DNA of 35,838 nucleotides, taken from the IMG/VR virus record IMGVR_UViG_3300046780_000399, positions 1 through 35,838 of that record. The stretch is one strand, 5' to 3'. The notes under the pieces were generated by a model. That model was not told where the DNA came from. It worked only from the letters and a program-made list of their open reading frames with translations, and searched no databases. The position numbers and the translations under genes are program-made. Shown here one piece after another: positions 15,409 to 30,541 of the stretch (its first letter is position 1; each line of letters begins with the position of its first letter). This stretch comes from a virus.

Positions 15409-15846
15409 TTAGCACCGCCTGTCGTCAAAGTCCTGCTGCCAAGCGCTAGAAACGGTCCAACGCTCGGCCGGATCTACGCCGAAGGATGACGGGAAATCCT
15501 GTGTGGTCGACCACGCGCGATCGGAGCTCCCGAGCGCGGTACCCGACAAAGTCAGCGTCATGGTCCCATCGTTCAGGTCGGTGAACCGCTGGTCGATGTA
15601 CTTTTTCAGTGGCTCTACACCTTTGGTGCCGATCTTCATCTTGTAATAGGTGAGGTCGATGCACAGCCCCGCGATAACCCCCGGAACGGGCGTGAACGGC
15701 ACGGTATAGCGATTGGCTAGCCGCGCGTCGACCTCGTCCTCGGCATCATTGATGAAACTGAGCTTCATTTCCTCGGCGCCGCCGCCGCTTTTGGCGCTGT
15801 CAGCGTACCGATTCGCCACGTCCTGCCAGTCGATATAGCGCGACAT
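15409..15846 (-). CDS. Head-tail connector, DUF1320/gp36-like
   Basis: 145 residues. The N-terminal YIDWQDVANRYAD is followed by INDAEDEVDARLANRYTVPF, the typical DUF1320 signature in which a helix ends in 'D-YL--RY--P'. Then comes GLCIDLTYYKM, the second helix of these small connectors. It would form the ring between portal and tail. The stop TAA abuts the next gene without a gap. Confidence 0.85.
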   Translation of the reverse strand: MSRYIDWQDVANRYADSAKSGGGAEEMKLSFINDAEDEVDARLANRYTVPFTPVPGVIAGLCIDLTYYKMKIGTKGVEPLKKYIDQRFTDLNDGTMTLTLSGTALGSSDRAWSTTQDFPSSFGVDPAERWTVSSAWQQDFDDRRC

Positions 15847-16127: not shown

Positions 16128-17612
16128 TCAGTAGCCTCCGAGGCGGATATTACGTTCCACGCCCAGCTTTGGCCCGCCCTCGATGCCCAACCGCGGGCCT
16201 TTTTCGGCACCGAGCCGGACGCGGACATCGAAGATGGACGGCGGGATATAGTTGGCGATCTTCTCATCCGTGATGACTTCGTTGTCTTCCATGATCCGGA
16301 CCCAGCGGGAAATTCGGATCAGGGCATCGGCAACCGTCACAGCGTCCGAGGCCACCACGCCGTGCAAGAGATTCTTAAGCAGCGCATCGGCGAGCGTGAT
16401 GCTGTCCGATAGCTGCGCTCGACGGTAAACCCAGCGCTGGCCGAGGTCATCCACGAGCACGAGCGCATCCGACATGACAATGACATTCGTGACGCCAGAG
16501 CCCGACAGAATCTTGATGAATCCGTCAATGACGTCCAGCGTATCGGTCAACTGCCGATTGAACCTGCGGATGATAATATCGCCGTCCGAAATCGTCAGAT
16601 CGTCTTCCAACTGGCGCCGACGCGTCAGGGCGTCGACGATGGCATCGGAAATAACGAGGTTGTCGCCTAGGCTTCGACCCCGGTATACCCAGTGCGTGCC
16701 GATGTCATCGATCGCGATGAGCGTATCGGACATCACTTTGACGGTCGTGACGGAACCGCCGATGACCGTCTTGATGAAGCCATCCGTGAGCGTGAGATCG
16801 TCTTCCATGACGCGAACACGCCGGCTCCAGCGCGTACCGATGTCATCGGGAATCGTTAGATCGTCTTCGCCCGTCTCCACGTAGGCCCGATCCAGCGTGG
16901 GCTCTGTGATGACAAGCGTGTCGGACATCACGACGGCGCCAATGGGTGCGAGTGCAATCATGGCGACGCCATGCCGACTCGCACCGGCCGTGCTCGTAAA
17001 CGTCGCCGCTACACTGCCTGCAGTCGTTTGGACCTTATCTTCGGATCGATAGGCATCGCCGGCCGAATACGTCGAGGAATTCCGACCCGTATATCCTGTG
17101 CCTGCACTTGGAAGCGTGGTCGATTGCTCGTTGTGCGCAAGGCCCCAGATCGTGCAGCCATTGGCGCTCGTTGTCGCCGCGCCCGAGGTTACCGCATCCG
17201 TGCTATTCGAAAAGGTCGCATCGTTCGCGCTCGCGTGATGCGCGTTCGGCTGGCCGCTCTGGGCGACACTGCCGTACTCATCGGCCTGGATGCGCCGAAA
17301 GGACGCGTTTGGCGAGAAGTGCCCGGTAACCGTCAGCTTGCTGGCGCCCTTGATATTCTGGGCGATGAACGTCGCCTGAAAAACATTGTCGACCGTACTG
17401 ACGGTCCAGGCATCGACGATGGCATACGTGTTACTACCGCCCGTCGCGTTGTCTGTAACCGATGTCAGGTCGCTCGAGGCCGTACCGACCCAGGAAACAT
17501 GACCGACAACACAGGCATGGGCTGTCGAATTAGAGCCTTGCGCGGCCGTGGCAACCGTGGCCGATGCTGCATCATTCGTATCCGCGCTCTGGCAAGACTG
17601 CAGGTAGCTCAT
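16128..17612 (-). CDS. Virion-type protein with about eleven short acidic repeats
   Basis: 494 residues. The first 230 look like a beta-sandwich domain rich in S, T, G and A (SCQSADTNDAASATVAT..., GYTGRNSSTYSAGDAYRS, ending in ASRHGVAMIALAPIG). Residues about 230-450 consist of about 11 units of 18-25 residues with core (S/E)D(D/T/A)L(T/V)(I/L)xD: SDTLVITE, EDDLTIPD, EDDLTLTD, SDTLIAID, GDNLVISD, EDDLTISD, TDTLDVID, SDALVLVD, SDSITLAD, SDAVTVAD, EDNEVITD. The C-terminus is LGAEKGPRLGIEGGPKLGVE. The repeats could form a solenoid or bind calcium via their aspartates; both are guesses. Position suggests a head or tail decoration or fibre. Confidence 0.65.
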   Translation of the reverse strand: MSYLQSCQSADTNDAASATVATAAQGSNSTAHACVVGHVSWVGTASSDLTSVTDNATGGSNTYAIVDAWTVSTVDNVFQATFIAQNIKGASKLTVTGHFSPNASFRRIQADEYGSVAQSGQPNAHHASANDATFSNSTDAVTSGAATTSANGCTIWGLAHNEQSTTLPSAGTGYTGRNSSTYSAGDAYRSEDKVQTTAGSVAATFTSTAGASRHGVAMIALAPIGAVVMSDTLVITEPTLDRAYVETGEDDLTIPDDIGTRWSRRVRVMEDDLTLTDGFIKTVIGGSVTTVKVMSDTLIAIDDIGTHWVYRGRSLGDNLVISDAIVDALTRRRQLEDDLTISDGDIIIRRFNRQLTDTLDVIDGFIKILSGSGVTNVIVMSDALVLVDDLGQRWVYRRAQLSDSITLADALLKNLLHGVVASDAVTVADALIRISRWVRIMEDNEVITDEKIANYIPPSIFDVRVRLGAEKGPRLGIEGGPKLGVERNIRLGGY

Positions 17613-18298
17613 GCGTTATTCACCGTGAGCGCCGAGCAGCAGTACTTCGACATATCCAGCGCGCCGTTGGGGCGACCGAAGAAGCCCGCACCTCCTCCCA
17701 AGCCGGACAGAATCTTGCCCGCCGTCGTATCGGTTCCAGTCCACGCCTGTACGAGACCTGATCCCGTATCCCGAGAGACCGTGAAGACCGGAGAGCTGCC
17801 CGTCCCGTCAGCGACTACGCGAACGCGGTCGGCATCATTCGGCGTGAAAACTGCGCCGGTCGAAGTCGTGACCGCAGTCGTGTTGAAATCACCGGAGCCA
17901 CCATTCCAGCGGATGGGCTGAAAATCGACGGAATAGCCGAAGTCGAATTCGTAGCCCTTCGCGACGCCGTTGCTGATCGTAAACAGCACGAGGATTTCCA
18001 CCTCGTGCGTGTCACCCGGCGTATAGCCCGCAGGCTTATAGAAGGTAAGATCGACCTGTATTTTGTTGGGGACGAGTACACGAGGACGGTATACCCCGAC
18101 GCAATCGTTGAACCCCGCAGACGACCCCACGCCCTGAAGTCGCCCGTTTAGGGTTTTTACGTCCTGCCAAGAGCCGCCGTCCTTACCGCCCAGCAACCAA
18201 TGGACGTTGTCGAGTGCGGGGTTTTCATCGACCGAAAGCGTGGGTGAGAACGGCGGGAATTCCTGCAGGAACCGCTTGTACTTGCGGACAATCGTCAA
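17609..18298 (-). CDS. Structural protein with lectin-like beta-sandwich
   Basis: 229 residues from TTG 18298; ATGA overlap downstream. Segments such as VHWLLGGKDGGSWQDVKTL, IQVDLTFYKPAGYTPGDTHE and WNGGSGDFNTTAVT suggest a concanavalin/LamG-like jelly roll, and a CC pair lies near the C-terminus. It is encoded between an unknown helical protein and the repeat protein. Glycan binding or virion decoration is possible; nothing diagnostic is visible. Confidence 0.55.
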   Translation of the reverse strand: MTIVRKYKRFLQEFPPFSPTLSVDENPALDNVHWLLGGKDGGSWQDVKTLNGRLQGVGSSAGFNDCVGVYRPRVLVPNKIQVDLTFYKPAGYTPGDTHEVEILVLFTISNGVAKGYEFDFGYSVDFQPIRWNGGSGDFNTTAVTTSTGAVFTPNDADRVRVVADGTGSSPVFTVSRDTGSGLVQAWTGTDTTAGKILSGLGGGAGFFGRPNGALDMSKYCCSALTVNNA

Positions 18299-18622: not shown

Positions 18623-19141
18623 CTATGTCGAATGCGAGAGATTGTGCGACCCGATCCGCGCCCGGTATGTCACATCCAGGAGGTCGGAGTTCTGCAGCGT
18701 CACGCCCATGCCGTTGACGGCTGAGCCGAGAATTCCTGATGCCGTCGAGCTGCTGGCGAAATCGGAAATGCCCACGGAATCCAGCGCCACGCCAGTCAGT
18801 GAGTCGGCCGATCCACCCCAGGTGTTCTGGATGAACGCCCACTCGCGCGAATTAGTCACGGTGGCGCCGATCTTGCGGCTTACCTCACCGAACCCACCCT
18901 GCGCCGAATCAAGAGAATGCGTCGCCGTCTGCGTGCCAACCAGGATGTATTGAAAGGCCGACGAGGCGTTCGTCGTGGCAAGGTTTGCGATCCGATTGAG
19001 GCCGGCCCGCGTGACGACGTTGCGCAGGGTCTTTCGTTCCGTGCGACCGTCGGCGCGAAAAACCGTGATGATGTACTCACCATAGACCGGGATCGCTTCG
19101 GGCTTGAGCGTATCCAGAACCCTAGAGGTATCGGTCTTCAT
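18623..19141 (-). CDS. Virion-type protein of unknown function
   Basis: 172 residues from ATG 19141, 20 bases inside the end of the glycosyltransferase gene; the longer open frame upstream is only antisense-like composition. It contains AIPVYGEYIITVFRADGRTE, NVVTRAGLNRIANL and AFQYILVGTQTATHS, a pattern seen in tail-fibre-associated or structural phage proteins. The C-terminus is beta-rich with a final YRARIGSHNLSH. Function unknown. Confidence 0.55.
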   Translation of the reverse strand: MKTDTSRVLDTLKPEAIPVYGEYIITVFRADGRTERKTLRNVVTRAGLNRIANLATTNASSAFQYILVGTQTATHSLDSAQGGFGEVSRKIGATVTNSREWAFIQNTWGGSADSLTGVALDSVGISDFASSSTASGILGSAVNGMGVTLQNSDLLDVTYRARIGSHNLSHST

Positions 19142-22100
19142 ACTGTTTGGTGCTCTCCTCGAGAAGGTGCGCGGCGACGCGCTGGTAGAATTGGCGGCTG
19201 TGGAATCGGCCGGCGAGTGAGAACTTCGCGGCCAGATCCGGAGCGGTAGGACACATCGTGTTGACTTCGATCTTGGCCTCGAAGCCCTTGCCGAGCGTCG
19301 CCACGCAGTGCGAGTAGTACGGCATGGCATCGGAGATCATGCGTGGTGGCGAGCCTTCGATCAGACTCTCGAAGGCATCGATTCCGCTTTGCGCTCGCGT
19401 CTGATGATCAGGAGCAATCCGGCCGCCCATCTGCTCCTGCTCGAAAATCATTCCCTGGGCGAGATCGCGCAGCCATAGGAACTTGTTGAGCTTGCGATCC
19501 GGATAGGCTTCGCGGTCGCGCAGGAGTAACGGCAGGTTGCGCTGGTAGCGGAGCCTGCGGGTCTCCTCATCCCGATAGCCGCCATGAAGAAACTTGACCT
19601 CGGGCCGCATGACGGAGCTCGGAATGGCCTGGCCCAGAATCTTCTCAGGGTGCTCGTGCACGAGGCCATAGAAGCGGATATCGCGATGGTTGCGATAGAA
19701 CCGACAGGGATAGTCCGTCGTCAGCACCTGGGCCGGATCAAGCGAATAATGAACCTGCGCACAGCCATAGCCCTCATGCAAGGACGGTCGGGCGAGTCGG
19801 TGTAGGTTCCACGCTTCGTGCAGTTCCTCATCCGCATCGCACCATAGGATCCAATCGCCGCTCGCGCCTTCCACGGATTCATTGCGCGCGGCGTCAAATC
19901 CGTCGACGGTCGCGCTCTTGCTGGCCGTCTGAATGTGGAAGGCCCGATTCGGGAAGTCCTCGCGCAGTCCGTGCGCAATCTTTATCGTGCGATCGGTCGT
20001 CTTGGGATCCACGAAGATGCGCACCTCGTCGACCCAATCCACGAAGGATTCGATGCAGCGACGCAGCGACTTCTCGCCGTCGCGCACGATGAGACAAGCA
20101 CTGAGGGTCTGCCGCGGTGCGTAGTACTTGAGCTTGCGCTCGAAGTTGATAGCGTTGAATGGCCTGTCGAGATGCGGCCGCACGGCCCAAATCCAGGATC
20201 CCAGCGGCTCGCCGGAACGATCCAGAGAGGCGGGCGCATAGGTCAGCGTGTACTGATGGCCCGCCAGAATCTCCTCGATATCCGCGCGCTCGTAATGCCG
20301 CAGATGCTCGCGGCCGGTGCGGAAGGCTTCCGTCCCGGAGTGCTCCCAGCGCCCGACTGGCGTCGTGATGAGCAGCAGCCCATCTTCATTCAGGAGGCCC
20401 TTGAGCCGTTCCAGCAGTGCGCCCGCGTCGCGGACGTGCTCCAGTACTTCCCCAGCCAGGATAACGTCAAACCGCTCCTCGCAGTCGACTAGATCCTTTT
20501 CCGAGCGCTGGAGGAATTGCGCGTTCTCGACCTTATCGCGCTTCGCCCACTTGCCTGCTGCAAAGACGGCCCGCGAACTGACGTCGAATCCCTTGAACTT
20601 ACCGAGCGGGAATAGCTTCGCGAGCGGCATGAGGTAATGACCGTGTGCACACCCGTAATCCAGCATCTTGGGTTCAATGTTCTGCGTGGCCTGGCAGAAC
20701 TGAATAAGCTGGTCACGCACGCCTCGAAAGCGCGTCGATTGCGTGACATCCTCGCCGATTACATGTTCTTCGTGATCGTCGTAGTAGATGCCCTGATGCT
20801 TGGCGTAGTGGTCAGCGTAAGAATCATCTGATTTGGTGAAAGCGTAGAGGTTTCTGATCTCTTCCGTCGCTGCGTAGAATATTTCGTTGGAAAACTTCGA
20901 CCGCGGGAAATGGAGCGCGTCCGCAGCGCTGTTAGGATCAAACCCCTCTGCATTCATTCTCAGAGCAATGAACCAGCGCGCGAAATCGATATCCGAATGT
21001 TCGATGGCGTGACGCAGCACTGCGCCCGTGTTGCCCGTATGACGCGCGAAACATTCCTCGATCACTTCGAGCAGGCGATCACAGGCCGCTGACCACGGGC
21101 AGGTCTGGGCGCTCGTTAGCTGCGTCTGTTTCAATACCCGCAGCTTCTCAGCGCCCTTGACAGAGAACAGGAAGCGCAATTCGTCAACGAAGACGTCCTC
21201 ATCGGCTTTGCCGTCCTTGAGCGGCACGAGTACCGCGCCTGCTGTTTTGCAGGTTTCGGGGAGTGCGCCGACATCGCTCGTGAGCATCGGCAATCCGGCG
21301 TGCATGGCTTCCATCGCCGTGATACACGAGACTTCCTCGAACTCCGTGGGATAGATGAGCAGGTCCGCCGTGCGCTGGAACTGTGCGAGTTGCGACTTGG
21401 TGAGCGCGCCGACCATCGTGATATTGGGAAGTCGCGCGGCTTCCTGGCGCAGCTTCTCGTAGAACGGGGCCATCTCGGCCGTCGTATTCTCGTACCCGCA
21501 GACCATGAGATGTACGGGCAAGTCTCGGCAGCGATCCATGATGCCGCCAGGGCGCACGAGGTGTTCCAGGCCGCGCTCGGGGCGCGACTGATAGAGCAGC
21601 GTGAACTTCCCCGCTGGCGGCTTCTTGGGCGGCTCCGTCGCATACAGCGCGGGGTCCACACCATTGGGTACGACGCGCAGAATGTCCTTGGTGAGCAGCC
21701 ACGTCTCTTCGACCTGCTTCGCGTGCCATGCTGATACGCATGTGACGGCGTCAACCTGCCACGTGCCGGCCAGCACCTTGGGCTGGTAGCGCTTGAGCGC
21801 GAGATCATGAAGCTGCCAGATGCAGACCTTCGCAGCGAAACGCTTATGGAAGGCGATGGGGTGACGCTGGATGATCAGTACGTCGTGCGGCGTATTGCGC
21901 GCGTACCACTCGAACTGCTCGCCCAGCGGATATTCGGCGGTGACGTGGCCGATCCAGATATAGGAAACGCCGTCTGTGGAATTCTCGGGCTGCTCTTTCG
22001 TCGTCCAGCAGCTCACGCGATGGCCACGGCGGCCGAGTTCGCGTGCGAGGTAGAAGGCGGCGGATTCAGACCCACCGAGCGATGATTTATTGACGGTCTC

Positions 22101-22142
22101 GCCGTCAAATGGCATGCCTGCCGCGTGAATGACGATATCTAT
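19122..22142 (-). CDS. Three-domain GT4 - methyltransferase - GT2 fusion protein
   Basis: About 1006 residues (positions below are from ATG 22115). Domain 1 (1-350) is a GT-B family 4 glycosyltransferase: GGSES (14-18), VVPNGVDPALY (148-158), and E261-x7-E269 (EEVSCITAMEAMHAGLP), the donor-binding motif. Domain 2 (about 425-650) is a class I SAM methyltransferase: motif I LDYGCAHGHY (485-494), then VILAGEVLEHV. Domain 3 (about 670-997) is a GT-A family 2 glycosyltransferase: LSACLIVRDGEKSLRRCIES, and DxD-type WCDADEE (D760/D762). The true start is probably ATA 22142: the in-frame residues IDIVIHAAG form the first Rossmann strand and a GAGGAGG site lies 12 bases before it. It follows the radical SAM gene in the virion operon. 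Substrates are unknown. Confidence 0.9.
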   Translation of the reverse strand: MDIVIHAAGMPFDGETVNKSSLGGSESAAFYLARELGRRGHRVSCWTTKEQPENSTDGVSYIWIGHVTAEYPLGEQFEWYARNTPHDVLIIQRHPIAFHKRFAAKVCIWQLHDLALKRYQPKVLAGTWQVDAVTCVSAWHAKQVEETWLLTKDILRVVPNGVDPALYATEPPKKPPAGKFTLLYQSRPERGLEHLVRPGGIMDRCRDLPVHLMVCGYENTTAEMAPFYEKLRQEAARLPNITMVGALTKSQLAQFQRTADLLIYPTEFEEVSCITAMEAMHAGLPMLTSDVGALPETCKTAGAVLVPLKDGKADEDVFVDELRFLFSVKGAEKLRVLKQTQLTSAQTCPWSAACDRLLEVIEECFARHTGNTGAVLRHAIEHSDIDFARWFIALRMNAEGFDPNSAADALHFPRSKFSNEIFYAATEEIRNLYAFTKSDDSYADHYAKHQGIYYDDHEEHVIGEDVTQSTRFRGVRDQLIQFCQATQNIEPKMLDYGCAHGHYLMPLAKLFPLGKFKGFDVSSRAVFAAGKWAKRDKVENAQFLQRSEKDLVDCEERFDVILAGEVLEHVRDAGALLERLKGLLNEDGLLLITTPVGRWEHSGTEAFRTGREHLRHYERADIEEILAGHQYTLTYAPASLDRSGEPLGSWIWAVRPHLDRPFNAINFERKLKYYAPRQTLSACLIVRDGEKSLRRCIESFVDWVDEVRIFVDPKTTDRTIKIAHGLREDFPNRAFHIQTASKSATVDGFDAARNESVEGASGDWILWCDADEELHEAWNLHRLARPSLHEGYGCAQVHYSLDPAQVLTTDYPCRFYRNHRDIRFYGLVHEHPEKILGQAIPSSVMRPEVKFLHGGYRDEETRRLRYQRNLPLLLRDREAYPDRKLNKFLWLRDLAQGMIFEQEQMGGRIAPDHQTRAQSGIDAFESLIEGSPPRMISDAMPYYSHCVATLGKGFEAKIEVNTMCPTAPDLAAKFSLAGRFHSRQFYQRVAAHLLEESTKQYEDRYL

Positions 22143-22154
22143 GGCTTGCTGAAG

Positions 22155-22161
22155 CCTCCTC
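22155..22161 (-). promoter_or_regulatory. Ribosome binding site implying an ATA start
   Basis: On the minus strand GAGGAGG is followed by 12 bases and ATA (22142-22140), then GAT ATC GTC ATT. No ATG, GTG or TTG occurs in this frame before ATG 22115, 39 bases from the site. The spacing equals that of the tail tube (12) and is close to that of the capsid (11) and decoration (10) genes. Confidence 0.5.
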
Positions 22162-22191
22162 GATTGTCAGTTCGATAGTTCACTTGAGCCT

Positions 22192-22917
22192 CTAATGAAG
22201 TGGATCCAGATGACAGGCCGCACACAGCGCATGGGGCGCCGTGGTGAGCCGAGAGAGATCGTCGTTGACGCTGCCAATGCAGGTATCGCCCGTGGAATCA
22301 AAGCTACAGCGCGCTACGCGACCATCCGACAGCGCAATGACCCAGCCGCCTTTGATCCACGGACACGGGCCGCGTTGGGCCGAGACGTGCCATTTGATTT
22401 GCCCCGCCCAGTCGGTGGCGGATATCGACGGATCAGCCGAAACACCTGCCAGGATGCCGGCCGAACGCAGCGCTTCCACGGCGGGCCCAGCTCTCTCAGG
22501 CCGATGCAAGGAAACGAACACGCGCGGAGATGCCGGCGCAATCGCTTGAGCCAATTCAGGCGTCATCAAAAGGCCGTTGGTCGCGAGTACCAGTTCGCAC
22601 TCGCCACCGACCGCCTCTCGAGCCAGGAATACGTTGCGCACGAATTCCGGATGCATCGTGGATTCGCCGATACCGGCGAGATTCAACGAACGCTGGCCCT
22701 CGTACTGCACGAAGTACTTGGCCCAGTGGAGAGCACGCGCATACGTCGCCTCGTCCATGTCCTGCTTCGTGCGCTTCATCGTGGGATGACAGCAGTATTT
22801 GCACCGTAAGTTGCACCGCGAAGTCATCTCGATTTGATGCAACGAACGCAGACGGAAAGAGACGGCCGGTCGAGTCCCGGCCGTCAAGGAGGGAGTCCTT
22901 TCAACAACTGCGTTCAA
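22192..22917 (-). CDS. Radical SAM protein with C-terminal SPASM-like cysteines
   Basis: 241 residues from TTG 22917, overlapping the capsid stop (TTGA). The radical SAM cluster motif CNLRCKYC gives C35-x3-C39-x2-C42. LNLAGIGESTMHPEF (79-92) is the GGE-type SAM-binding motif, and ELVLATNGLLMTPEL follows, as in SPASM-type enzymes. C-terminal cysteines C185, C204, C213, C232 and C235 could hold an auxiliary cluster (CPWIKGGWVIALSDGRVARC). The enzyme would cleave SAM to make a radical for modifying a peptide, sugar or nucleotide. It is encoded between the major capsid and the GT-MT-GT gene, so it is probably expressed with the virion. No precursor peptide is evident. Confidence 0.88.
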   Translation of the reverse strand: MNAVVERTPSLTAGTRPAVSFRLRSLHQIEMTSRCNLRCKYCCHPTMKRTKQDMDEATYARALHWAKYFVQYEGQRSLNLAGIGESTMHPEFVRNVFLAREAVGGECELVLATNGLLMTPELAQAIAPASPRVFVSLHRPERAGPAVEALRSAGILAGVSADPSISATDWAGQIKWHVSAQRGPCPWIKGGWVIALSDGRVARCSFDSTGDTCIGSVNDDLSRLTTAPHALCAACHLDPLH

Positions 22918-23897
22918 GTCAACCCGTTCGCCTGAGCCGAACCCACGCCCAGGAGCAGCGAGGCATAGTCGAAGCCCGTGATACGCTCGTCCTGGTAGTA
23001 CGAGACTTCCACGCCCTCGACCTTCTTGCGAGTGTCGTAGGGATGACGCAGCACCGCGAGCGGCGTACCGAGCTCCGGAGCCGTCCAGCGGAAGCTGTAC
23101 ATGAAGCTCGGCTCTTCACGCGAAGCCGCCAGCGGGGCGTAGTAGATCAGCACCGCATCGTGGATCGGATTCAGTGACAACGCCGCTGCCTGCGCCTCAT
23201 TGGTGGTGTTGTAGAACGCGCCCGCGACCAGCAACCGGTCGAGTTCGAACGCATCCCGCGCGCCCTGCTGCGTGAGCGCCCCGCCGCCATTGTTCAAGCC
23301 AAGCATGAAGTTCCGAACGTTGACGTTGCGACGGAAGTAGTTCCACGCACGCCAGCCGAACAGAAGGCTGTTCGGTTTTTGCGCGGTGAGCGCCTGATTC
23401 TGCTCCATGGCCTTCCAGATCATGGAAATCGGATCACCGGCACCCGAACCTGCCGCGACCCAGGAACTTCCACAGAGAAAGCCCGTCGCGACGTTGGACG
23501 CCGAACCGACCGCCGACAGTACGCGCTTGTCCCAATCCAGGAACAGCTTGTTCTGAAGGTACCGCTCAGTGCCGCCTTCGAGTTCCGCCTGCAGCGGCGC
23601 GTCCATATTCGCGTAGTCCTCAATCGGCACATCGTAGGCCAGCGCGTAGTTCTTGCACGCGTACGCTGCGGATGAGACCGACCGGGTAATGCGCTTGGCT
23701 TCCGTGCCCCGCGACCGAGTGGTGTCCTCGATTGCAAATGCCTCGCCCCGACTGAAAATCGGGTAGAGGTTCGTTTCCTTCGCGACCGATACCACGGGGG
23801 CGATCATGTCGGCGATCATGCCCGTGGGACGGTAATTGATTGCGACTTCCGTCAACAGTGCGTCGACGTGAAGATCGCGGCCTGTAGAAAGACCCAT
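22914..23897 (-). CDS. Major capsid protein (HK97 fold)
   Basis: 327 residues, ATG 23897 with AAGGAGG 11 bases upstream. The opening HVDALLTEVAINYRPTGMIADMIAPVV is a familiar one among phage major capsid proteins (shown here in part: VDALLTEVAINYRP). It continues with SRGEAFAIEDTTRSRG, a P-domain-like helical middle, and C-terminal VSYYQDERITGFDYASLLLG. No prodomain is visible, so scaffolding is supplied by the separate protease/scaffold gene. It follows the decoration protein, the standard order. Confidence 0.9.
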   Translation of the reverse strand: MGLSTGRDLHVDALLTEVAINYRPTGMIADMIAPVVSVAKETNLYPIFSRGEAFAIEDTTRSRGTEAKRITRSVSSAAYACKNYALAYDVPIEDYANMDAPLQAELEGGTERYLQNKLFLDWDKRVLSAVGSASNVATGFLCGSSWVAAGSGAGDPISMIWKAMEQNQALTAQKPNSLLFGWRAWNYFRRNVNVRNFMLGLNNGGGALTQQGARDAFELDRLLVAGAFYNTTNEAQAAALSLNPIHDAVLIYYAPLAASREEPSFMYSFRWTAPELGTPLAVLRHPYDTRKKVEGVEVSYYQDERITGFDYASLLLGVGSAQANGLT

Positions 23898-23914: not shown

Positions 23915-24289
23915 TCAGGTGCCGGGCCAGGCCGGAACGGTAGTGAAATCGACGAATGCCGGGATGAGATCCCCGCTCGCCGCCGCCGCCAGAGCACGCC
24001 CGCAATGCGAGCCGCCCGACGAAGCTGCAATGAAGAACCCCGACGTCGTGATCGTGAGCGGGTAGCCGAGCGTGGTCACCGTCGCCCCGGCAACGACCTT
24101 CGTGGCGCCTTCATAGACAGCGCTTGCGAATTCACCACTGCGGGTGCTGGTGATGAGCACGCCGGCCGCGCGGCTGGTGGATGCCGCGATGGCACCGCCC
24201 AACGTAACGGCCTTGTACCGGCAGGCCACGGGCGACAGATCGTCGGTGGCCGTGACCGTCAACTGTTTGTGAACGAGTTCAGTCGACAT
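23915..24289 (-). CDS. Capsid decoration protein (DUF2190-like)
   Basis: 124 residues, ATG 24289 with GGGAGG 10 bases upstream. It is small, beta-rich and rich in A, T and S: LTVTATDDLSPVACRYKAVT, LGGAIAAST, GEFASAVYEGATKVVAGATV, HCGRALAAAASGD. These patterns are typical of DUF2190-type head decoration proteins that trimerise on the capsid. The place immediately before the major capsid gene in transcription order supports it. Confidence 0.75.
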   Translation of the reverse strand: MSTELVHKQLTVTATDDLSPVACRYKAVTLGGAIAASTSRAAGVLITSTRSGEFASAVYEGATKVVAGATVTTLGYPLTITTSGFFIAASSGGSHCGRALAAAASGDLIPAFVDFTTVPAWPGT

Positions 24290-24292
24290 GGA

Positions 24293-25363
24293 TTACACGC
24301 CTCCCGCTTCGACGGTCTCAGGCAAGTGCTTGTAGCTCTTGCCCAACTCCGCATCGGCCGCCATGACCCGCTGCGCAGCGATAGACAACTGCTGCCAGCG
24401 CGGCAACTTCGAAAACTCCGGATCAGCCGCATTCTCGCGAATGTACTTCTTCGCGAAGTGCACCACGCGATCATCCGCACGCGTCTCGGATGAGACTTCG
24501 ATCTCACCCGACAGGCCCACGACCTTGCGCGGCGCTTCCGGGTTCGGGTTGTCCTTGATGAAGGACTCCACGTCCGGGAGCGTGACCTCAAGAATCGTAT
24601 CCTTCTCGAACTGATATGCGCGCTTGAACTTCTCGCGTACCGCTGGAACGATGCTCTTGGCCTTGATCGCGGCCTCGAACAACTCCGTGATCTTGTCGCG
24701 GTGCTGCTTCAACTTCTCGTTGTGCCGCTCCGTCTCGACATCCTTCAGCTTGCGCTCGAAACTCTCGCGCTCAGCCGCCTTCACTTCCAGCGCCTTCTTC
24801 TCGCTCTCGAGCTTGTCGAGACGAGCCATTAGCGCGGAAACGTCATTCCCCTTGTTGGGATCGTCTGCCATGTTGGGCTTGTCGCCTCCAGTGTGTTGAT
24901 CCCGCGTGAATGCCACGCGCACACGGCCCTGGAGTCCAGAACCTCGTGCCATCGTGAGCTGCTGTAGGTCTTTCAAATTACCGACCGCGGGGGGATCGGC
25001 ACCCAACAGAGCGACGGCATCCAAAACCCACGGGATCACCCGTGTGTCGGCTTGCACATCGCCCAGCAGCTCAACGGATACGAACTTGTAGAGGCCCGCC
25101 TTGATCGCCTCATAGACGGCGGCGGGCATGTTGGTGAAATCAGCGAGGAGCTTTCGGCCCTCGCGATAGACGCGGCTCACCCAGCCCAGTGCGGGCTGAC
25201 CATCGGTGAGCGGCTGCGTCTCGTTGTGACCGAACTTGAGCGGGATCTTCCCCGCGAGGTTCAGCAGGTCGAACGATTTGACGATGGCGTCAAGGTCGGC
25301 GGATGAGAACGGAATGCCGTTCCACGTGCCTTCGCTGAAGACCTCGGCCCCTCTCAGGTCGAT
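24293..25363 (-). CDS. Mu I-like head maturation protease with C-terminal scaffold
   Basis: About 356 residues if it starts at ATC 25363. The N-terminal half reads DLRGAEVFSEGTWNG, PLKFGHNETQPLTDG, ALGWVSRVYREG and FVSVELLGDV. These match the Mu gpI-type prohead protease family (conserved 'GH', 'GWV', 'VSVE'). The C-terminal half (about 165-356) is a charged coiled coil (LMARLDKLESEKKALEVKAA), the expected scaffold that the protease removes. The first canonical start in frame is GTG 25180, which would delete the conserved GH region, so an upstream non-canonical start is favoured. It overlaps the preceding gene by 10 bases. Flanked by portal-side genes and the decoration gene. Confidence 0.8.
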   Translation of the reverse strand: MDLRGAEVFSEGTWNGIPFSSADLDAIVKSFDLLNLAGKIPLKFGHNETQPLTDGQPALGWVSRVYREGRKLLADFTNMPAAVYEAIKAGLYKFVSVELLGDVQADTRVIPWVLDAVALLGADPPAVGNLKDLQQLTMARGSGLQGRVRVAFTRDQHTGGDKPNMADDPNKGNDVSALMARLDKLESEKKALEVKAAERESFERKLKDVETERHNEKLKQHRDKITELFEAAIKAKSIVPAVREKFKRAYQFEKDTILEVTLPDVESFIKDNPNPEAPRKVVGLSGEIEVSSETRADDRVVHFAKKYIRENAADPEFSKLPRWQQLSIAAQRVMAADAELGKSYKHLPETVEAGGV

Positions 25364-25805: not shown

Positions 25806-26014
25806 CCTACTCTCTCCTTCAGTCGCAGTTCATCGGACATGACGCGCAGATGCACGCGCGGATACGGCGTGAATGGCCCAGCGGCGGCCGCGGTGAGTTC
25901 GGTTTCAAACACGGTTGAAGCGGCATCAACCTCGCGCGTCACTCGCGCTCGTTCGGCCTCTTCCGCAGCCGTGAGCTGACTCGGATCCCGGAACCATTTC
26001 GCTATGTCGGTCAC
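25802..26014 (-). CDS. Small protein of unknown function after the portal gene
   Basis: 70 residues from GTG 26014, which forms a GTGA overlap with the portal-MuF stop; the open frame further upstream lies within the portal gene and is discounted. Content: TDIAKWFRDPSQLTAAEEAE, a helical segment, then a short beta region (YPRVHLRVMSDELRLK). The phrase 'WFRDPS-LT' suggests a short phage connector-type protein, but no family is claimed. Confidence 0.55.
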   Translation of the reverse strand: MTDIAKWFRDPSQLTAAEEAERARVTREVDAASTVFETELTAAAAGPFTPYPRVHLRVMSDELRLKERVG

Positions 26015-28518
26015 TGCACTGCGCCCGCCCCAAACCCCGCCTGCGGCTGCACGCTGGGTGGTGCCGACTCCTGACCGTCCCAGCCATCCGCCGTCGTGAT
26101 CGGGATCAGGATGCTCCTGCAATTGTAGTGATTCGGTGGCCGGTAATTGTCCCACTCGGGCGAGTCATCCGCGTAGATCGACCCGTCGAGCGCGGTACAA
26201 ATCTCCGTGGTGCGGTCGTCCATCACGGCCGAGTATTCGAGCGCCTGCACGAAACCACTGAGATTGGGGTCGGTGAACTCGGCATACCGCGCTTCGTTCA
26301 TCGCCTCGAACAGGTTGGTACGCGAAAGCGTGTCCAAATAGCTCGCGGTCTGTGCCGGATCCGCGCCCCACAAATCATTCAGCGCGGTCGTGACGGCCGC
26401 GTCATCCTCGGTCTCGCGCACCGATTCGCGATTCGTGAAGCCGCGCGAAACCAGTCGGTCCCAGATCGACTCCCGCGTCTGCGGGGGCGAGCGCCCGAAC
26501 TTGATGCTGTTTTGCAGTTCCTGCTGGATCAACGCGCGTACACCGTCCGACACATTTCCCGCCAGTCGAAAGCCGTTGGCCTCGAAAAACCCGGCGGCGT
26601 TGTCGCGCAAATCTGTCATGGCCACCATTCTTTGGCCACGGGCGCGTTCCAATTCAGCCCGCGCGAGTTGACCGCCGAGCCGCCAAGCACCCTGGAGCGC
26701 ACGGCGGAAAATCTCCTTGAGCTGGCCCTTCTGCGTACCCGAAAACTCCATCTGCTGGAGGGCGGCCGGATCATCGCTCGTGAAGCGCTTCAGGTCCGAG
26801 TCCGTGCCCAGCATCTTGCGCACGGCCTTGGCGACGAACGGCGCCACGTTGTCGGCGAGTTCATAGGCCAGTCTGTCTTGCCGACGCTCGATCACGGCAA
26901 AGGACACGCGCTGGACAGCCCGGTCGAACTGGGCGCGGGTGGCCGTCCTGAGCTTGCCGTGCGGCCGCAGTTCGATGACCGGCGCCTTATGCGGCGGCTT
27001 CTCAACCGCACGAGCGGCTTCGAGCGCCTGCGTCGTCAGGGCCTCGATTCGAGTGACGGCCGCTTTGAATTCCTCGCGTAGCGCCGTATAGGCGGCGTCA
27101 TTGGGACCCTGCTGCTTGCCTCTGATATCCGGCCCGACGTTGCCCTTGGGCGTGTCAGTCGGAGCCTGTCCCTGCGCCTGCGGGATGACGAGCGGCTTGG
27201 AGGTCGCCGTGCGCTTGGGCATATCCAGCAACCGACGGAAGAAGGCTTCGTCATCCTCGGTGGGCACCATTCCCTTCGCGCCCACGAGTTCCGCCCAGCT
27301 ATTGATGACCTGGAGGATGTGCTCACGAGAGGCGGGCTTGAACCCGAAATCCGGGTAATCGCCGTCCCCGAAGTTCTGATCGCCCAGTTCCTCGACCAAC
27401 TGCTCGTTGATGACGGCCTCGAGCCGGGCCGCATCCGCGTTCAGCGTCCAGAAGAACGCCTCCAGTTGCGTCTGAGCCTGCGAATACGCCCCGGTCTGGC
27501 CGGTGTGTGTGATCCCGAGCAGGTTGGGCACCAGGAGCGCCTTGGCGATGCACAAGTCCCAGAACACCATGGCCTTCTCGTAGGCGTCCGTGCTCGCCGG
27601 ATAGATGACCTGGATGCCAAAGCCCTTGGGCGGAATGATGCCGGTTGCGGCGTGCAGGTTCCGCAAGACCGCCTGCATCGACTGGTATTCTGGGGAGTTG
27701 TATTGGACGTCAGAGTCGGGCTGGCGATTGGCCACCACGAAGCCGCCCGCCATGCGCTCCAGATATAGCGTCCAATAGTTGCCGATTTGCTGCTTGATGT
27801 ACCAAGCCCGATAGGCTTCCCGCAGGTCCGAGCGGCCATAGTAGCGGTCGAATTCCGGCGAGTGGACGTAGTGGATGTACCGGCTCATGTCCACCGGCAC
27901 ACGCCGGCCTGCAGCAACCTGCCATGTCTCACGCAAGATCCCGTGCTCGTCCGTGTAGAACTGGAACGTGCCCGGTGCGCGGCCCATGAGCATGTTCACG
28001 CCGACATAGCTTTGGTCATCTACGGTGATCTGGCTCAACACCTTTTCGGTCATCGAGAAGCCGAAATCGCGGCCTGTCGCGATCACATTCAGGGCATCCA
28101 AGAACGAGCCCTTCATGCCGTCCAGGATCTTGCAGAACACGCGAATCCGGCGGTCCTGCTCGACTGGCGAGAGCTTCGATCCCTCGTCAAAGCTGAACAT
28201 CCAGCCGCGCGCTGTGATGGCGTCGCGCTTGAAGTTCATGACGGCCTTGACCTGCTCGTCCACGCGCATGCGATCGTAAATCTCGATGCCCTTTTGGGCG
28301 ACGAGCTTGTCCGGGTTGTAGCGCGGGCCGAGATTGAAGAAGCTGCGCTCGAAGCCTGCAACCTCATCTAGCGCTGGAACGCTCACCGCCTCCTCCAGCG
28401 GCGGCACGGGAGCTACGGTAGTCCCCGGCGCCATGCTGGACTGCATGGGACCTGCCCCAACGGGCGCATAACCTACCGATGCAAAACGAGCGCGGATACG
28501 CGTGAAGAGATTCGCCAA
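26011..28518 (-). CDS. Portal protein (DUF935, Mu gp29-like) fused to MuF minor head protein
   Basis: 835 residues from TTG 28518, immediately after the terminase stop, with GGGAGGG upstream. Residues about 55-440 are a DUF935-type portal: YDRMRVDEQVKAVMNFKRDA, then RYIHYVHSPEFDRYYGRSDL and WDLCIAKALLVPNLLG. A linker of about 60 residues follows. Residues about 640-815 are a MuF domain: LDTLSRTNLFEAMNEARYAE, then SAVMDDRTTEICTALDG and PPNHYNCRSILIPIT with its HxNCR signature. In Mu these are separate genes (gp29 and gp30); here they form one chain. The portal is the DNA gate of the head and MuF is an internal head protein. No toxin domain is appended. Confidence 0.9.
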   Translation of the reverse strand: MANLFTRIRARFASVGYAPVGAGPMQSSMAPGTTVAPVPPLEEAVSVPALDEVAGFERSFFNLGPRYNPDKLVAQKGIEIYDRMRVDEQVKAVMNFKRDAITARGWMFSFDEGSKLSPVEQDRRIRVFCKILDGMKGSFLDALNVIATGRDFGFSMTEKVLSQITVDDQSYVGVNMLMGRAPGTFQFYTDEHGILRETWQVAAGRRVPVDMSRYIHYVHSPEFDRYYGRSDLREAYRAWYIKQQIGNYWTLYLERMAGGFVVANRQPDSDVQYNSPEYQSMQAVLRNLHAATGIIPPKGFGIQVIYPASTDAYEKAMVFWDLCIAKALLVPNLLGITHTGQTGAYSQAQTQLEAFFWTLNADAARLEAVINEQLVEELGDQNFGDGDYPDFGFKPASREHILQVINSWAELVGAKGMVPTEDDEAFFRRLLDMPKRTATSKPLVIPQAQGQAPTDTPKGNVGPDIRGKQQGPNDAAYTALREEFKAAVTRIEALTTQALEAARAVEKPPHKAPVIELRPHGKLRTATRAQFDRAVQRVSFAVIERRQDRLAYELADNVAPFVAKAVRKMLGTDSDLKRFTSDDPAALQQMEFSGTQKGQLKEIFRRALQGAWRLGGQLARAELERARGQRMVAMTDLRDNAAGFFEANGFRLAGNVSDGVRALIQQELQNSIKFGRSPPQTRESIWDRLVSRGFTNRESVRETEDDAAVTTALNDLWGADPAQTASYLDTLSRTNLFEAMNEARYAEFTDPNLSGFVQALEYSAVMDDRTTEICTALDGSIYADDSPEWDNYRPPNHYNCRSILIPITTADGWDGQESAPPSVQPQAGFGAGAVQ

Positions 28519-30096
28519 CTATTGCGCGTAGCCCTCCCAAGAGCGCGATTCGATCACGATGGCCTCCTCCATTGGAATCTCGGCACGGGAAGCGAGCGTC
28601 GGCGATTGTGTCGCGTACTGCATGGCGTGAGAGTCTGACATATCGGGCGACTTCAAACCCTTTAGCCGCATCGCCTCCTTGGAGACGAGCTCCTCGAACC
28701 TCTCATCCCCTGGCCGCTTCTCGATCGTGCAGAGCTGATTCTGGTACTCGTCCGCGTCCTCGTTGGAATCGAAGCAATGCACCGAGAAGTCCACGAGTCC
28801 GTCCCGGTATTCATCCCGCAGATTGATGAAGCTCTGGGCGCGTCGGTTCTTCCACTTCTTCGTGTTGTCCGAGCCTGAGCCGCCCTTATAGGCAATGACG
28901 GCGTGGCCCTTCTGAATCAGATAGCCCGCCGTGCCGGCGCCGACGCCCAGGGAATCGACGACCAGATCGTCCTGACCTTTGACCCCTTCCCACGCCTCGA
29001 ACAGTTCGAGCGCGGCCTGGGCCACGAGGATGGGCGCCTCGGAGCTCGGAAACGAATAGCGCTTGACCTTCTCGACGCGGCGGAAGCTCTGAAAGTGTCG
29101 GCAGATCGTGACCACACTCTCATCGATTCCACCGTCGGCGACATCGATCGACACGCGCAGCTTGGGCAAGGAACCATCCGTTTCGCGGGGCGCCCGGCTC
29201 ATGGCCCGCTGAATCCAGGACAGCGCGATCAGTTGGTTTGGGCTGGAGTCGGCGAACTCCCCGAAGCACCGAATCCGAACCTGCGGGGAATGCTCGCCCC
29301 ACATGCGGATCATCTGCGCCACCCAGTCGCGGGAGACTCGATTCGCCTTCTCCAGTGTGATCGGCAGGCGGTAGTAGTCACCCGCCAGCCGACTCGAAAG
29401 CTGGCTCTGCGCAAACACTCCCGTCATGCGGGTAGCGTTGGAAATCATGACCAGGATCCCGACTTCCGAACTCGCGAGATTGCCGAGCAGCACCGGGAAG
29501 ATATTCTCGTCCATGCCGCTCGCTTCATCGACCAGCACCAATGTGAAACGCCGCCGAAGACCCTGCATATTCTCAGGCTGCGTGCCCGTCTCGGCGACCA
29601 GCAAATGGTTGTCCGGGTCGTGCGTGCGCCAGTAGACGCGCGTTGCTTGCACGTCTTGAAGCTCGCGGTACTCCGGAATCGCGCGGTTGCGGATCTTCGC
29701 GAACTCGCCGAAGAACCGCGTCTTGACGTGCTCGAGCTTCGGGGCCGTGACAGCCACAATCGACGGGTACCAGCAGAAGCCGAACCAGTGGGCGAGTTCG
29801 GCGATTCCGAAGGTCTTGCCCGGCCCCTGGGGGGCGACCACGGAAATGAGGTTCTTCCCGTCGTGGTTGACGACAGTCGGCAGCCCCTGGCGCTTGCGGA
29901 AGACGTCAGCGACGGCTTCGGCCAACTCAATCTGCCAGCCGTCCTTGATCCAGCTCGTGCGCCAGTCGAATCCCGGCGCGCCCACTTCGGGCTCGCCGCG
30001 GCGCGCCTTGAGTTCCAGGATCTCACGGGCGAACCAGTTCGGGTCAAGCCGAGCGCGCTCCCGCATCCGGCGAGTCGCTTCGAGAATCGCGCTCAA
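28519..30096 (-). CDS. terL: Terminase large subunit
   Basis: 525 residues from TTG 30096, five bases after AGGAAGG; an earlier in-frame TTG at 30114 lacks this spacing. The ATPase domain has GPGKT (91-95) as Walker A, with alanine where the first glycine is usual, and LVLVDEAS with D190-E191 as Walker B. The nuclease domain carries RVSIDVADGG (D318, D321), LVVDSLG (D381) and MSDSHAMQY (D488), giving the acidic residues for metal-dependent DNA cleavage. It cuts and pumps DNA into the prohead through the portal encoded next. It overlaps the small subunit gene by 53 bases. Confidence 0.92.
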   Translation of the reverse strand: MSAILEATRRMRERARLDPNWFAREILELKARRGEPEVGAPGFDWRTSWIKDGWQIELAEAVADVFRKRQGLPTVVNHDGKNLISVVAPQGPGKTFGIAELAHWFGFCWYPSIVAVTAPKLEHVKTRFFGEFAKIRNRAIPEYRELQDVQATRVYWRTHDPDNHLLVAETGTQPENMQGLRRRFTLVLVDEASGMDENIFPVLLGNLASSEVGILVMISNATRMTGVFAQSQLSSRLAGDYYRLPITLEKANRVSRDWVAQMIRMWGEHSPQVRIRCFGEFADSSPNQLIALSWIQRAMSRAPRETDGSLPKLRVSIDVADGGIDESVVTICRHFQSFRRVEKVKRYSFPSSEAPILVAQAALELFEAWEGVKGQDDLVVDSLGVGAGTAGYLIQKGHAVIAYKGGSGSDNTKKWKNRRAQSFINLRDEYRDGLVDFSVHCFDSNEDADEYQNQLCTIEKRPGDERFEELVSKEAMRLKGLKSPDMSDSHAMQYATQSPTLASRAEIPMEEAIVIESRSWEGYAQ

Positions 30097-30541
30097 CGCC
30101 ACCTTCCTCCGCAATCAGCCGGGCAAAGGCTCCCGAGAAGGAGCCGTCGGAATTTGTGAGATCGACCTTCTCGCCGTACTTCTTGGGTTGAAGCTTCGCC
30201 AGCCGCCACTTCAGGGTCGCGACCCTCAGTTCAGAGCGCTTTACATGCTCTCCATTGACCTGCCAGCCGATGACCGCATTCTCGCGGTCGCGCTTCTCCA
30301 TCCAGTCATTCGTGCCGTCGTCCGCAATCTCTTGTAATTCATCGAACTTCAGCTCGCTCTGAATCTCCCGCGCGCGCGCGTACTTGGTACGGAAAGCGTC
30401 GTGAAGGACGAGCCAGTCGAAGATTGTCCGCTTTCCCGGCATGGATTCGTCGCGGCAAATACTCCGTAGACTCTCACCCTCAATGAGCCGGTCACAGATG
30501 GTATCGACGAGTTCCTCGGAGTACAGGGATGGTCGACCCAT
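30044..30541 (-). CDS. terS: Terminase small subunit
   Basis: 165 residues. GRPSLYSEELVDTICDRLIEG followed by SLRSICRDESMPGKRTIFDWL (both shortened here to the key parts: GRPSLYSEEL, SLRSICRDESMP, TIFDWL) is the helix-turn-helix region of this widespread TerS family. KFDELQEIADDG and LRVATLKWRLAKLQPKKYG are its other conserved features. It recognises the packaging site and delivers DNA to TerL. The C-terminal tail overlaps TerL in another frame. TAATG overlap with the GIY-YIG gene. Confidence 0.9.
   Translation of the reverse strand: MGRPSLYSEELVDTICDRLIEGESLRSICRDESMPGKRTIFDWLVLHDAFRTKYARAREIQSELKFDELQEIADDGTNDWMEKRDRENAVIGWQVNGEHVKRSELRVATLKWRLAKLQPKKYGEKVDLTNSDGSFSGAFARLIAEEGGVERDSRSDSPDAGARSA

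Follow-up and report, generated by a model that had tools for sequence, protein, structure and literature searches.

Results

A candidate modification module in the head operon

What might a phage modify with glycosyltransferase, methyltransferase, and radical SAM (rSAM) enzymes that are encoded directly behind its major capsid gene? The question is raised by a viral DNA of 35,838 nucleotides (IMG/VR record IMGVR_UViG_3300046780_000399), which was analysed over its whole length and is called the window here. Its minus strand, which carries all of the window features given below, reads from right to left as the head operon of a siphophage followed by tail genes. The operon encodes the small subunit of terminase (30044-30541), a fusion of a Mu-like portal with protein F (26011-28518), a protease/scaffold protein (24293-25180), a head decoration or head-fibre-like protein of small size (23915-24289), and the major capsid protein (22914-23897). 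The capsid assignment comes from phrog_1005 (E = 7e-50) and a gene-order survey. Directly 3' of the capsid gene are two open reading frames (ORFs), 22192-22917 and 19122-22115, for an rSAM protein and a GT4-methyltransferase-GT2 fusion. The fusion is directly followed by a conserved protein of unknown function (18623-19141, start approximate; phrog_5417), and a head-tail adaptor is encoded at 15409-15846. The region at 16128-18298, like the same region in relatives, encodes fast-changing Ser/Thr/Gly-rich proteins that bear fn3 domains or repeats and fill the interval from the GT4-methyltransferase-GT2 fusion to the head-tail adaptor; these are possibly head fibres.

An earlier, sequence-only reading of the window had described two large enzymes between the capsid and tail genes. 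The location is right, and the fusion has about 1,006 aa, but the rSAM protein is small (231 aa). Measured against the near relative L029, dN/dS is 0.056 for the rSAM gene, 0.094 for the fusion, and 0.063 for the capsid protein. This purifying selection indicates that the rSAM and fusion ORFs are real genes and did not arise by chance.

The fusion accompanies the capsid gene among relatives

An unbiased scan of viral contigs with the capsid protein gave 187 relatives. The best 80 were read and 69 were assessable; some of these contigs are near-identical, and the relatives reach down to about 42% capsid identity. In 69 of the 69, the fusion is found downstream of the capsid gene; it is usually the adjacent gene, and the gap is <500 bp in most of them. 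A search with the fusion gave 162 viral-contig relatives, of which the best 80 were read. No full fusion was found in cultured phages, and plasmids yielded single domains only. The more distant cultured relatives Ottawa, Jenst, and KPP23 have other genes at the site, with no glycosyltransferase annotated. Weak hits in two contigs (L080:7374-11415 and L097:4111-10795) suggest GT2, methyltransferase, and GT4 as unjoined pieces in a different sequence, with an rSAM gene and a distant capsid gene nearby. This arrangement is possibly an unfused form. Two contigs, one with an rSAM gene and one with the capsid gene and fusion, were binned in a Zixibacteria MAG, and binning alone is no proof of host.

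The neighbours of the fusion differ in how well they are kept. Nearly all relatives whose DNA spans the site have the decoration-type protein, with one to three copies each, and its positional counterpart in Arthrobacter phage Ottawa is annotated as a head fiber. The proteins further 3', namely the 18623-19141 protein and the repeat protein, are missing from many fusion-carrying phages, which is not true of the capsid and decoration proteins. By genomic linkage, the two neighbours kept throughout are candidate substrates: the capsid protein would most likely be the substrate or the substrate's neighbour, with the decoration protein as the alternative. No acceptor Ser, Thr, or Cys site stands out in the decoration protein. 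Up to three tandem decoration-type proteins occur in L085, L091, L093, L095, L099, and L218, a sub-lineage with divergent rSAM copies.

Domain structure of the fusion points to a protein acceptor

From its probable start (see below), the fusion (19122-22142) has 1006 aa. The GT4 domain (GT-B fold; 21018-22142, residues 1-375) carries the EX7E motif as E270...E278, the class I SAM methyltransferase domain (20178-20825, residues 440-655) carries LDYGCAHGHY, and the GT2 domain (GT-A, with a helical C terminus; 19125-20129, residues 672-1006) carries DADEE and VHEHP. Pfam finds Glyco_transf_4/Glycos_transf_1, Methyltransf_23 (E = 1e-18), and Glycos_transf_2 in this order, all above curated cut-offs. 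With EX7E and DXD present, these matches uphold the earlier description of intact motifs for two glycosyltransferases and a SAM methyltransferase. The EX7E and DXD patterns occur in 85 of 85 full-length homologues, as does the GT2 pattern W.D.DE, and the strict pattern of methyltransferase motif I (DYGCAHG) occurs in 69 of the 85. The full-length homologues found, of which 12 were aligned, have the three domains joined in the same order. Against L029, dN/dS is 0.036 for the methyltransferase, 0.063 for GT2, 0.144 for GT4, and 0.26 for the linker.

Foldseek searches with an AF2 model of the fusion (pLDDT 80) matched GT4 to PimA and GlgM, and GT2 to ThuS and SunS, the latter being YolJ of SPbeta. 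The best profile matches of GT2 among solved structures are GmaR (4e-24), SunS (1e-21), and ThuS (4e-16). The match to SunS is remote, scoring 48 bits against the SunS equivalog TIGR04195, whose cut-off is 350. GT2 enzymes of many specificities share this fold; the nearness to GmaR, SunS, and ThuS suggests a protein acceptor.

The sequence-only reading had named both a capsid or tail protein and the host surface as targets. GT4 and GT2 enzymes are common builders of surface polysaccharide, and the GT4 profile matches include LPS and exopolysaccharide enzymes, so the module might alter host LPS, capsule, or teichoic acid against superinfection or readsorption of progeny. However, the fusion is without exception part of the late head operon, where it follows the capsid gene, and the nearest matches of its GT2 domain are protein glycosyltransferases. 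No membrane segment was predicted in it, and no hydrophobic 19-mer scored above 1.0. The scanned ORFs, which take in part of the small ones, include no flippase or lipid-carrier gene and no gtr-like family of the kind found in O-antigen seroconversion cassettes, in which a glycosyltransferase embedded in the membrane is combined with a flippase and a bactoprenol GT. We consider a host-surface target improbable and a virion protein the best reading.

Phages also glycosylate DNA, and some base-modification pathways include rSAM enzymes, so the module could in principle make a glycosylated, methylated base against restriction. We give this explanation very little credence: the genes are in the head operon, not with the replication genes, no base-modification gene was found among the scanned ORFs, and the GT2 domain again is nearest to protein glycosyltransferases. 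Nor was a sugar-nucleotide pathway gene found among the window ORFs scanned.

A probable AUA start of the fusion, preceded by a spacer hairpin

The fusion ORF is present and intact as first read, but its start moves from ATG 22115 to a probable AUA at 22142. The nine codons upstream of ATG 22115 are kept as codons, and in the model they encode the β-strand with which the GT-B fold begins (residues 2 to 6); a start at ATG 22115 was therefore rejected. In 86 non-redundant homologues, the start column sits just before the strand (D/H/F)IVIH and holds ATG in 67, ATA in 8, GTG in 6, and TTG in 1. The window has ATA there (22142-22140), as do L002, L003/L029, L004, L010, L011, L012, L013, and L047, and none of them has an ATG, GTG, or TTG within reach. 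Initiation at AUA is rare but precedented, because Staphylococcus infC and ccpN have natural AUA starts, with reporter activity about 10 to 30% of that of AUG (PMC13009471).

The spacer that separates AUA from the Shine-Dalgarno sequence GGAGG holds a 5-bp hairpin (22143-22156). Two of the pairs vary, and in each both partners change in concert (UA to AU and UA to CG), which counts as one change per pair because the covariation rests on two sequence clades. The hairpin cells are paired in 100% of cases, versus 20 to 45% in slid controls. The stretch from the rSAM stop to the AUA has about one difference from L029, although the dS of the flanking genes is near 0.9. A 14-codon mini-ORF (GTG...CCA TAG; 22139-22183) ends here, its TAG overlapping the AUA start (ATAG); in L011, L012, and L013, the mini-ORF stop of the window clade is the rSAM gene's own stop. 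A -1 frameshift joining the rSAM protein to the fusion is unlikely, as the window-clade rSAM gene stops about 50 nt earlier and no slippery heptamer was seen.

The rSAM protein is a BtrN-like twitch enzyme by fold

The rSAM protein matches Pfam Radical_SAM (E = 2e-13, above the curated cut-off). Its start is probably TTG 22887 (22192-22887, 231 aa) and not the alternative TTG 22917. The similarity to L029 sets in only around TTG 22887, a Shine-Dalgarno sequence (GAAAGGA) lies 8 nt upstream of it, and most homologues start about 6 to 8 residues ahead of the conserved HQIE, whereas TTG 22917 is within a stretch lacking conservation. This casts doubt on the TTGA overlap with the stop of the capsid gene, through which the rSAM gene had been read as coupled to it.

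Counted from TTG 22887, the CX3CX2C motif is C25/C29/C32, the cluster first numbered C35/C39/C42, and it is invariant in an alignment of 26 sequences from viral-contig relatives. These relatives also keep GxGE, HxP, and WAGQ motifs. Outside CX3CX2C, the only conserved cysteines are C175, C194, C222, and C225, all invariant. The sequence-only reading had seen SPASM-like cysteines. SPASM proteins have a cysteine set for two auxiliary clusters; because the conserved cysteines after the core number only four here, the protein has a one-cluster twitch domain, the half-SPASM of BtrN-like enzymes of about 250 aa, and is not a SPASM protein.

The best PDB profile match is BtrN (E = 5e-12), near full length and with the auxiliary-cluster cysteines aligned. 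An AlphaFold2 model (mean pLDDT 90) has a partial TIM barrel that matches rSAM folds. Among the families listed by VIA-align or Foldseek, BtrN again comes first (Foldseek E = 4e-9; Z = 18.6 to PDB 4m7t, rmsd 3.1 over 214 residues). The seven cysteines of the clusters all match those of BtrN. The runner-up folds are anSME (Z = 15.2), ChlB (14.7), and SkfB (14.3). The protein falls below every NCBIfam cut-off, and its remote NCBIfam matches include peptide maturases.

The fusion is core and the rSAM gene is accessory

A search with the rSAM protein gave 99 viral-contig relatives, of which the best 80 were read. The rSAM and capsid genes are on the same DNA in 59 of 77 loci, and in these the rSAM gene is within 8 kb of the capsid gene. 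Its position varies among the 59: between portal and scaffold in 30, between capsid and fusion in 15, after the fusion in 13, and before the portal in 1. Two or more rSAM copies occur in 37 loci. Searching 50,697 deposited phage records by tblastn found no relative, and in the genomes of 84,980 bacterial and archaeal species a single contig matched, itself phage-like.

We then looked at fusion-carrying records that have no rSAM gene at its usual sites. In 27 of these 29 records (each ≤48 kb, some of them fragments), there is no rSAM gene anywhere. Explaining rSAM presence on the capsid tree needs 14 changes, at least 10 of which are forced by well-supported branches. The two genes had been read as a complete pathway; the survey and the tree rule out an obligatory pair. 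The related-phage survey proposed at the outset thus gave a split result, with the fusion constant at the capsid gene and the rSAM gene accessory.

Some relatives have extra genes in the head-gene region: methyltransferases in L022, L042, and L149, GT2 enzymes in L074 and L077, and other rSAM proteins in L074. Such additions are expected of glycan tailoring. At L074:2407-6852, the BtrN-like rSAM is preceded upstream by a GT2 enzyme and two other rSAM proteins, one HemN-like and one B12-binding. Proteins with a P-loop-like HTGxx/HSGTH motif occur near the rSAM gene or the fusion at L066:4785-5321, L068:4271-4816, and L169:6175-6846; they gave no Pfam match, and a guess that they are sulfotransferases was dropped.

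A gene that comes and goes independently of the fusion, at four positions of the head-gene block, might instead act directly on a virion protein. In this scenario, the rSAM enzyme would oxidise or crosslink a side chain or peptide in the manner of anSME or RiPP enzymes, and the closeness of the anSME, ChlB, and SkfB folds and the remote matches to peptide maturases fit this idea. However, BtrN ranks first by profile, by Foldseek, and by VIA, the protein has one auxiliary cluster where SPASM peptide enzymes have two, and no conserved small precursor-like gene lies beside it. We regard direct action on a protein as rather unlikely, though more probable than a host-surface or DNA target.

Discussion

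With modest confidence, we propose that the module glycosylates a virion head protein late in infection. An added glycan and methyl group on the capsid or another virion protein, as the sequence-only reading had it, best fits the unbroken linkage to the capsid gene, the protein and peptide glycosyltransferases nearest to GT2, and a module in which neither a membrane segment nor a sugar-nucleotide pathway was seen. The capsid gene and the fusion would presumably be transcribed late as one operon. The GT2 domain would most likely link a sugar from the host to a side chain on the capsid protein or the decoration protein; extension would fall to the GT4 domain and capping to the methyltransferase domain, so that the fusion builds a short methylated glycan from host sugar nucleotides. 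In a subset of the phages, including that of the window, the BtrN-like twitch rSAM would most likely turn a hydroxyl of the sugar into a ketone by two-electron oxidation. A weak AUA start may limit the amount of enzyme relative to the abundant capsid protein, and the benefit may be a changed particle surface. The substrate, the sugar, the sequence of the steps, the reaction of the rSAM, and the benefit are our inferences from the evidence above. The full combination, in which a fusion translated from a conserved AUA behind a spacer hairpin glycosylates protein, the capsid bears a methylated glycan, and a BtrN-like rSAM makes a keto sugar in some members, is offered tentatively, and we doubt that every part of it will hold.

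We know of no radical SAM enzyme that acts on protein-bound glycans, and sugar oxidation on a virus shell, if true, would be chemistry not seen so far there. A few cultured phages are known to have glycosylated virions; in the present case, an entire lineage of uncultured phages carries a single-gene candidate glycan builder. It becomes testable which head protein is modified, whether the rSAM enzyme tailors protein-bound glycans, and why the particles would be coated. The conserved AUA start with its covarying spacer hairpin is also a natural test case for non-canonical initiation.

Each enzyme resembles a characterised one in part. BtrN, a twitch rSAM dehydrogenase of butirosin biosynthesis, carries out a two-electron oxidation of an aminocyclitol hydroxyl (PMC9012708). 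The window protein has its size, fold, CX3CX2C motif, and four auxiliary-cluster cysteine positions in common with BtrN, but only about 15 to 19% identity, and it is encoded in a phage head operon. GmaR transfers GlcNAc to flagellin in Listeria (PMC9638930). It is a protein glycosyltransferase with further helical domains (PDB 22ao), as the fusion GT2 probably is too; however, GmaR has TPR and antirepressor parts, whereas the window GT2 is fused to GT4 and methyltransferase domains. The peptide S-glycosyltransferases SunS and ThuS (PDB 7msn and 7msk) are phage-borne or bacterial GT2 enzymes that act on a peptide side chain, but no glycocin precursor was seen beside the window fusion.

No paper was found on an rSAM gene and a GT4-methyltransferase-GT2 fusion at a capsid gene, and a single-gene builder of this kind, coupled to a twitch rSAM, appears new within what was searchable. 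Modification of virions by phage enzymes is of a kind already known, because virion glycosylation is established in the mycobacteriophages Che8, Corndog, and Myrna, in which the phage encodes a glycosyltransferase for its capsid protein or its tail tube protein (Freeman et al. 2023, as cited in PMC12363180). The putative module described here differs in its three-domain fusion, fixed beside the capsid gene across a lineage, and in its accessory rSAM.
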